In this document: one piece after another, positions 24,443-26,866 of the stretch
Numbering within the stretch: position 1 is the first letter of the stretch
How the letters are laid out: each line of letters opens with the position of its first letter
The notes under the pieces: generated by a model
What the model saw: the letters and a program-made list of their open reading frames with translations, nothing else
Told to the model about the DNA's origin: nothing
The model's database searches: none
Program-made: the position numbers and the translations under genes
DNA from: Flavobacteriaceae bacterium
GTDB lineage: Bacteria > Bacteroidota > Bacteroidia > Flavobacteriales > Flavobacteriaceae
Assembly: GCA_027082925.1 (NCBI GenBank)
Contig: JALWTD010000017.1
Span: 248,001-312,000, forward strand
DNA length: 64,000 bases
Direction of reading: 5' to 3'

Positions 24443-24478
24443 AAATTAACCTCTGACGAAAATCGTGAATGTTAATTT
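24443..24478 (+). promoter_or_regulatory. structured rplS 5' leader (candidate r-protein leader)
   Basis: AAATTAAC/GTTAATTT 8-bp stem enclosing ACGA-AAA-TCGT hairpin. Confidence 0.5.
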
Positions 24479-24855: not shown

Positions 24856-24876
24856 TACGTATTCTTTAAAAAATTA

Positions 24877-24909
24877 CAAACCCATCTTGAGATTCGAGAT
24901 GGGTTTTTT
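24877..24909 (+). terminator. intrinsic terminator of rplS
   Basis: AAACCCATCT-tgagattcg-AGATGGGTTTTTT. Confidence 0.88.
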
Positions 24910-24910
24910 G

Positions 24911-24930
24911 TTATTAACAAATGTTAATAA
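24911..24930. promoter_or_regulatory. palindrome TTATTAACA-AA-TGTTAATAA, candidate operator
   Basis: Perfect 9-bp inverted repeat with 2-nt centre immediately upstream of the putative ncRNA promoter. Confidence 0.5.
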
Positions 24931-24979
24931 ATAACGTTTATATTTTGTTGATAACTAAACAGTTACAAATTTGCAAACT

Positions 24980-25399
24980 AAATTCCTTTTTATTTCATTT
25001 GTATAAGAATTAAGAAACTAAGTGAGTTTAGAATTTTGAAGCATTGTTTTAAAGCACTTTATTTACTTTAAACTTAATTCTAAAAAATGTTCTTGAACAT
25101 CGTTGTTAAAACCTAACTTTAAAAAGTAATGTAAGCCAAGTATTTAGCATGAATAGATGGATACAGGGTTTTAATAACAACCTTTAAAATAACAATAAGG
25201 GTTGTGGTTTTCTATAGAGCTACAGCATAACCTTAATGTTGTTTTGAAAGAAACTATCATCTTTAATAAGAAAGTTGATTTGTAAGAAACAACTTTTCGG
25301 TTTAGAATTTTTAATCAAATTAAAGTCGAAAACTTATTAAAAGAATGTTTCAGCAATAAGCCATAATAACTAGAAATAGCTGTTATGGCTTTTGTTTTT
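24980..25399 (+). ncRNA. putative structured non-coding RNA of unknown class
   Basis: Long ORF-free gap; promoter-like TTTG-N18-CAAATTTG at 24944-24973; stems 25006-25014/25073-25081, 25087-25100 (CUUG loop), 25102-25113/25067-25081 partner at 25167-25181, 25186-25206/25226-25245, 25270-25277/25290-25298; terminator 25359-25399. Confidence 0.6.
25359..25399 (+). terminator. intrinsic terminator of the putative ncRNA
   Basis: AGCCATAATAACT-agaaat-AGCTGTTATGGCT followed by TTTGTTTTT. Confidence 0.8.
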
Positions 25400-25506
25400 A
25401 ATTACTTTTGTTATTCTTTCAATTTTACCCCTTAAATATTGATGTAAACACAAAATACACCCCTGATTTATAACACTTTCAAAGCACTATTTACACCAAT
25501 ATTTCC

Positions 25507-25514
25507 TATCTTTG
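25507..25514 (+). promoter_or_regulatory. TAnnTTTG -7 element for icd
   Basis: TATCTTTG about 25 nt upstream of the icd ATG. Confidence 0.55.
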
Positions 25515-25539
25515 CTCTGCTTAATTTAAATCAATAACA

Positions 25540-26766
25540 ATGGCAAAAATAAAAGTTACAAATCCTGTTGTAGAACTCGACGGAGACGAAATGACTCGTA
25601 TTATTTGGAAGTTTATTAAAGACCAATTAATACTCCCTTATTTAGACTTAGATATAAAATATTTTGACCTTGGTGTAGAATACCGAGATGAAACCAATGA
25701 TCAAGTTACTATTGATGCTGCTGAAGCCATCAATAAATACAATGTTGGTATCAAATGTGCTACCATTACTCCTGACGAAGCTAGAGTTGAAGAGTTTGGA
25801 CTAAAACAAATGTGGCGTTCCCCTAACGGAACCATCCGTAATATTGTAGGAGGAACTGTTTTTAGAGAGCCTATTATTATGAAAAATGTTCCTAGATATG
25901 TACAAGGATGGACATCTCCTATTTGTATTGGACGTCATGCTTTTGGTGATCAATACAAAGCTACCGATGTAGTTACCAAAGGAAAAGGTAAACTTACCAT
26001 GACTTTTACTCCTGAAGACGGAAGCGAACCTAAAACTTGGGAAGTGTATAACTTTGAAGAAGATGGAGTAGCTATGTCTATGTACAATAAAGATTCTTCT
26101 ATCTATGGGTTTGCCAGATCGTGTATGAATACTGCTATTGTAAAAAAATGGCCATTGTATTTATCTACTAAAAACACCATTCTAAAAGCCTATGATGGTA
26201 GATTTAAAGATATTTTTCAAGAGGTTTACGACAATGAATTTAAAGAAAAATTTGAAGCGCTTGGAATTACTTACGAACACCGATTAATTGATGATATGGT
26301 TGCTTCAGCAATGAAATGGAGCGGTGGTTTTGTATGGGCTTGTAAAAATTACGATGGTGACGTACAATCAGATACTGTAGCACAGGGATTTGGATCATTA
26401 GGATTAATGACTTCAACTCTTGTAACTCCTGATGGCAAAACAATGGAAGCAGAAGCTGCTCACGGTACAGTAACTCGTCATTACCGCCAACATCAACAAG
26501 GAAAAGAAACCTCTACAAATCCAATCGCCTCAATATTTGCATGGACTAGAGGATTGGAACACAGAGGTAAATTAGATAATAACCAAGAGCTTATTAATTT
26601 CTGTCATACTCTAGAAAAAGTATGTATAGATACTGTAGAAAGTGGTAAAATGACTAAAGATTTAGCATTGCTAATTCATGGAAAAGATATGACTCGAGAG
26701 CATTATTTAAATACACAAGAATTTTTAGATGCTTTAAAAGAAAACCTAGATAAAGCACTAGCTTAA
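25540..26766 (+). CDS. icd: NADP-dependent isocitrate dehydrogenase
   Basis: [53 protein letters not shown]. Confidence 0.97.
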
Positions 26767-26783
26767 AATTCAATCTTAAATTG

Positions 26784-26866
26784 AAAAGAGTCTGTTTTAA
26801 AAGTCGTATTTTCGTCAAATGAATTTTGACGTTATTTAAAACTTTTAAAACAGGCTCTTTTTTTAT
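26784..26866 (+). terminator. long two-tier terminator of icd
   Basis: 21-nt arms 26784-26804/26841-26861 (one G.U), inner CGTCAAA-tgaat-TTTGACG, then T-tract. Confidence 0.8.

Follow-up and report, generated by a model that had tools for sequence, protein, structure and literature searches.

The gap between rplS and the isocitrate dehydrogenase gene (icd) encodes a single-copy structured RNA that has no match in Rfam. It lies in the window, the whole 64,000-nt stretch of DNA that was analyzed, whose genus is Lutibacter, where trmD and rplS are followed by the RNA region and then by icd around a gap at 24856 to 25539. The existence of a conserved, structured noncoding RNA (ncRNA) at this locus is highly probable. 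Our main reading, to which we give a probability of roughly 0.6, is that of an autonomous and stable ncRNA, transcribed under boxA-dependent antitermination, that works in trans in the form of a folded RNA or a ribonucleoprotein (RNP). The original prediction had described a ~420-nt structured ncRNA that it could not place in any known class and had proposed an Rfam scan and a check of relatives. Both were run, and the description stood, since the region has no Rfam match and the relatives show conservation as well as covariation. Beyond that prediction, we found that the RNA is family-wide and that a boxA-like motif is present.

Architecture and covariation of the RNA in Lutibacter

The elements of the gap are listed in Table 1. 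As predicted, the gap holds no open reading frame (ORF) of at least 40 amino acids on either strand between 24856 and 25539. The longest ORFs do not go beyond those of dinucleotide shuffles, which ruled out a small protein. At the sequence level, the RNA region has its own promoter and intrinsic terminator and no coding potential.

Table 1. Sequence elements in and around the RNA region (window positions)
Element	Positions	Strand	Description
rplS intrinsic terminator	24878-24906	+	13-bp stem and T run; kept in all relatives; bounds the upstream unit
Operator-like 20-bp inverted repeat	24911-24930	+	TTATTAACAAATGTTAATAA; degenerate pattern TTATKAACANNTGTTMATAA
Promoter region	24944-25001	+	TTG...(C/T)AAATTTG (24966-24973) and/or AAATTTG (24967-24973)...TTCATTTG (24994-25001); conserved in Lutibacter and other genera
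5' domain	25006-25081	+	closed by AGAATTAAG (25006-25014) / CTTAATTCT (25073-25081); weakly conserved in the genus
5-bp hairpin	25087-25100	+	ATGTTCTTGAACAT; invariant in the genus save single changes; counterpart of the boxA-like motif
P2	25102-25181	+	GTTGTTAAAACC (25102-25113) / GGTTTTAATAACAAC (25167-25181); near-invariant loop GTATTTAGCATGAATA (25140-25155)
P3, long hairpin	25186-25245	+	25186-25206 with 25226-25245
P4 domain	25250-25351	+	GAAAC (25250-25254) / GTTTC (25347-25351); TTTAATAAG (25262-25270) / CTTATTAAA (25333-25341)
P4 inner hairpin	25270-25298	+	GAAAGTTG / CAACTTTTC
Intrinsic terminator	25358-25400	+	AAGCCAT...ATGGCTTTTGTTTTT; nearly invariant in Lutibacter; same terminator in 26 further genera

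The promoter consensus of Bacteroidota is TTTG / TAnnTTTG. A promoter had been predicted at TTTG...CAAATTTG (24944-24973); the promoter region is indeed conserved, but the assignment of the -33 and -7 boxes may be one register off. By comparison with other genera, AAATTTG aligns with their -33-like TTTG and the downstream TTCATTTG with their TAnnTTAG/TTTA, while positions 24966 to 24973 read TAAATTTG in most Lutibacter genomes, a sequence that would serve well as a -7 box and is found before tmRNA too. Because two promoter registers fit the alignments, the transcript is predicted to start at about 24980 or about 25007, with a predicted length of about 390 to 420 nt.

The plus strand of 24976 to 25400 folds at -105.5 kcal/mol, with a z score of -7.4 against dinucleotide shuffles, compared with -2.2 for the minus strand; removal of the terminator left the plus-strand z score at about -6 to -7. 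For 26 Lutibacter-type sequences, z averages -3.7 on the plus strand versus -1.5 on the minus strand. Every inverted repeat listed in the original prediction was found in the sequence.

BLAST with the region recovered it in 34 of 36 other Lutibacter genomes; the remaining two, both fragmented assemblies, gave one chance-level match and none. Wherever trmD and rplS are present on the contig, the copy comes right after them, in the same orientation. The most conserved parts in the genus are the promoter region, the 5-bp hairpin, the P2 loop, and the terminator. In alignment A1, built from 26 nonredundant Lutibacter-type sequences with helices called by RNAalifold, 96% of the cells in the core are paired and 16 of 41 pairs show changes on both sides. 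There are 57 both-side-change cells versus 18.5 in shuffled alignments (0 of 500 shuffles as high), and the covariation score is 0.246 versus at most 0.113 when the structure was slid; as the helices were called on the very sequences in which the pairs were counted, only the excess over these controls counts as evidence. The secondary structure is thus conserved, with compensatory changes beyond the controls. Within the genus, changes on both sides were seen in 4 of 13 pairs of P2 and in 12 of 23 pairs of P3 (helices 3 to 5 of A1), and in P4 variation at the alignment pairs 312-476, 318-471, and 324-464 leaves the pairing largely intact. In genome G172, from another genus, the P2 pairing is rewritten as AUUUUUCAAACU/AGUUUGAAAAAU.

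The palindrome between the rplS terminator and the promoter may be an operator or protein-binding site, one that has not been described. Its degenerate pattern was present in 7 of the 12 genomes tested; each of these has a single copy, which invariably falls in the gap downstream of rplS. In one relative (G084), the sole exact copy lies in the stretch ~370 to 700 nt after rplS, past the RNA terminator and before a dimeric isocitrate dehydrogenase (IDH) gene, possibly in a duplicated control region. These properties bear on the idea that the locus is a DNA element, such as a replication origin, instead of an RNA. Not only is the palindrome unique in each genome where it was found, but its half-sites resemble DnaA boxes, DnaA-box-like 9-mers are packed more densely here than anywhere else in the window, and dnaA is 6 kb away. 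We nevertheless hold this explanation to be extremely improbable, because strand-specific folding and covariation argue for RNA. An origin at this locus was rejected on GC skew, which has no inflection here on the 436-kb contig; in a complete genome it changes sign near 0.1 to 0.2 Mb and about 2.1 Mb, with the locus at 2.517 Mb.

Spread in Flavobacteriaceae and relation to isocitrate dehydrogenase

Outside Lutibacter, the genus covariance model (R1) detected syntenic relatives in two genomes of other genera, including G172. A further match, in G164, was rejected as false, because it is not near rplS and its surroundings look coding. We then inspected the gap downstream of rplS in ~60 genera and found it to be mostly 500 to 870 nt without a long ORF, and in other genera it holds a longer relative of the RNA, of about 380 to 550 nt. 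A terminator of the form AGCCAT..ATGGCTTTTG, the promoter region, and the 5' block are shared by 27 genera. The main subtypes are A (~450 to 550 nt), B (~380 to 430 nt), and C (Lutibacter and near relatives, ~390 nt), and further variants exist. Covariation is again strong in alignment A3 of 18 subtype A genera, with both-side changes in 66 of 111 pairs, 244 both-side-change cells versus 76.8 shuffled, and a score of 0.423 versus at most 0.087 when slid.

A model of the subtype A 3' domain (R2) matches 98 of 301 family genomes, in 81 of 237 genera, with one copy each in nearly all. A model of the subtype B 3' end (R3) matches a different set of about 41 genomes at E < 1e-10; matches weaker than E of about 1e-9 were left out, because the common terminator hairpin alone can yield them. 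Together, R2 and R3 place the RNA in at least 139 of the 301 sampled family genomes. R2 matched none of 198 genomes sampled across the order outside the family, and the rplS locus lacks the RNA in other families of the order and in genus g147 (probably Flavobacterium), whose sampled genomes have just 166 to 271 nt after rplS.

The interiors of the three types are too different for a single good alignment, so that the grounds for their proposed homology are the shared locus, promoter, motif, and terminator together with one helix. The long-range helix after the 5' motif encloses ~55 nt in Lutibacter versus ~215 alignment columns in subtype A. It seems that the Lutibacter RNA is a reduced form, a homology that we infer from its position.

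The frequent neighborhood of the RNA and an IDH gene raises the question of a cis-acting leader or attenuator, a folded RNA that senses something and controls read-through into icd. Of 35 Lutibacter loci, 34 have an IDH gene after rplS (32 monomeric, 2 dimeric), as do 52 of 65 loci in the family, and this notable association survives the swap of one IDH family for another. However, a strong conserved terminator and then a separate icd promoter stand between them, the RNA occurs without an adjacent IDH gene at six loci (L046, L053, L063, L066, L107, and L117), and IDH follows rplS without the RNA at others (L057, L072, L109, L120, L125, L129, and L135 to L138). A leader or riboswitch that always precedes its regulated gene was therefore rejected. 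Because the RNA without IDH and IDH without the RNA both occur, the RNA is not simply an icd leader, and control of icd from this position is highly unlikely. The predicted autonomy from icd is supported by the three downstream contexts of the RNA (monomeric IDH, dimeric IDH, or neither), with IDH directly after rplS where the RNA is absent.

As a separate observation, the window's own gene after the RNA (25540 to 26766) encodes a dimeric IDH (TIGR00127), as does that of locus L011, while 32 other Lutibacter loci have the monomeric enzyme (TIGR00178); apparently, one enzyme has been replaced at this position by a different one with an equivalent function. Just 3' of icd there is a long near-perfect inverted repeat (26779 to 26863), probably a terminator or repeat, which gives weak chance matches to eukaryotic miRNA models.

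The boxA-like 5' motif and a proposed mode of action

The most widespread sequence element across the subtypes is a boxA-like motif near the 5' end, GTTCTTTA..ATTG, in which AACGTTCTTTA is usually followed by ATTG; the 5-bp hairpin of the window RNA corresponds to it. The gammaproteobacterial boxA consensus is GYTCTTTAANA, from a survey that lay outside noncoding RNAs (PMC5725501). In our family, the rrn leaders of 6 of 6 genomes carry GTTCATT..ATTG, one base apart from the ncRNA core GTTCTTT. The composite GTTC[AT]T[TG]..ATTG is present in 23 of 27 RNAs, where chance would give 0.008 per RNA, as well as in the 6 rrn leaders. Since this pattern was written after seeing the RNAs and rrn leaders, the independent evidence consists of held-out gaps and the tmRNA leader alone. 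In 16 held-out gaps, GTTCTTT was found in 12 on the plus strand and in none on the minus strand, versus 1.1 in shuffles, and the tmRNA leader of the window's genome has a boxA-like AAAGTTCTTTGAAGTATTG just before the mature 5' end (locus L187, about 1483 to 1502). The RNase P RNA of the same genome is without the motif. In Lutibacter, boxA function may be lost, because there the motif is degenerate, a self-complementary hairpin without the ATTG half. On this sequence evidence the motif is boxA-like, and the case for a boxA function in the family appears evenly balanced.

According to the main reading, which includes our inference that the RNA is transcribed, antiterminated, and stable, RNA polymerase would start at the RNA's own housekeeping promoter just past the rplS terminator, transcribe ~400 nt (380 to 550 nt in relatives), and stop at the RNA's own intrinsic terminator; the product would be untranslated and strongly folded. 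Near the 5' end, the boxA-like signal most likely recruits the NusB-S10 antitermination complex, which would prevent Rho from ending the untranslated transcript and would aid folding. Once mature, the product, a stable structured RNA or an RNP, most likely works in trans, like the ModT/raiA, 6S, and OLE RNAs.

The conserved sequences could also serve other functions. A base-pairing small RNA would act through short single-stranded seeds, either the ACGUUCUUUA strand or the GUAUUUAGCAUGAAUA loop. Both are near-invariant, and a relative provides a precedent in Rfp18 of Flavobacterium psychrophilum, which controls protease mRNAs (PMC9723704). We consider this unlikely, because the large size, the many covarying helices, and the conserved junctions point to a folded scaffold, and a match to the rrn and tmRNA leaders accounts better for the most widespread strand. 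Alternatively, the RNA might be a Nus-factor decoy that binds NusB-S10 through boxA and tunes antitermination of the rRNA operons. Such a decoy would fit a boxA-like motif that is more widespread than any other element of an otherwise highly variable RNA, a place next to a ribosomal protein gene, and the regulation of other genes by boxA sites outside rrn in gammaproteobacteria (PMC5725501). But a decoy needs no hundreds of bases of covarying structure, and the Lutibacter motif is degenerate, so that we give this possibility very little credence.

Coming back to a stable RNA that acts in trans, our confidence in any particular cellular role is low. As a speculation, and quite an unlikely one, it could be a Flavobacteriaceae-specific stable RNA that its boxA-like element draws into the control of ribosome synthesis, transcribed like rRNA and binding NusB-S10 or another ribosome assembly factor so as to couple rRNA output to growth; its ends would be fixed and its body fast evolving. 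A large, covarying, single-copy RNA at a fixed locus, absent from Rfam and present in a major marine family, marks a gap in the catalogue of bacterial stable RNAs, and with the covariance models it can readily be annotated. The motif also raises the question of whether, in Bacteroidota, boxA antitermination serves stable RNAs besides rRNA.

Comparison with known RNAs

We found no Rfam match in the region even at E values up to 10. No match above the gathering score was obtained in the window RNA region, and none assigned the RNA at 20 loci in relatives. The sole Rfam family identified anywhere in the window is the L19-Flavobacteria ribosomal protein leader (RF03130) at 24447 to 24474, upstream of rplS as expected; in one relative, a Flavo-1 RNA (RF01705) lies near rplS (L067, 2022 to 2165, minus strand). 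SRP, OLE, GOLLD, ROOL, raiA, and all other Rfam families gave no covariance model match above the gathering score. 6S, tmRNA, and RNase P were rejected as identities, as they have their own copies elsewhere in the genome (tmRNA at G000 C13, 6S-Flavo and RNase P at C14); these are likewise autonomous stable RNAs, differing in location and giving no match here. Our search of the open-access literature found nothing on an rplS-linked RNA of Flavobacteriaceae. Judged by Rfam and that literature, the RNA forms a new family within a known kind, the large structured bacterial ncRNAs.

Among the nearest systems, the boxA of rrn leaders with its Nus antitermination complex (PMC5725501) resembles the 5' motif, with GTTC[AT]TT..ATTG in the rrn leaders of six genomes and GTTCTTT in the RNA's relatives. 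The likeness is one of sequence, and here the motif precedes a nonribosomal RNA and is degenerate in Lutibacter. Rfp18 and the other Rfp RNAs of F. psychrophilum (PMC9723704), compared by description, are also structured, Rfam negative, and from Flavobacteriaceae, but they are described as conserved in the genus Flavobacterium, and g147 has only the short stretch noted above after rplS. OLE, GOLLD, and ROOL (PMC12286853) share a length of several hundred nucleotides, a multihelix untranslated nature, and a function at first unknown; the window RNA is smaller, single copy beside rplS, and matches no Rfam family. The raiA-motif RNA, or ModT, of Bacillota and Actinomycetota (PMC11706538) belongs to other phyla and another locus and has no covariance model match to the window RNA, yet it is equally a conserved, structured, and autonomous bacterial RNA, and ModT acts in trans.
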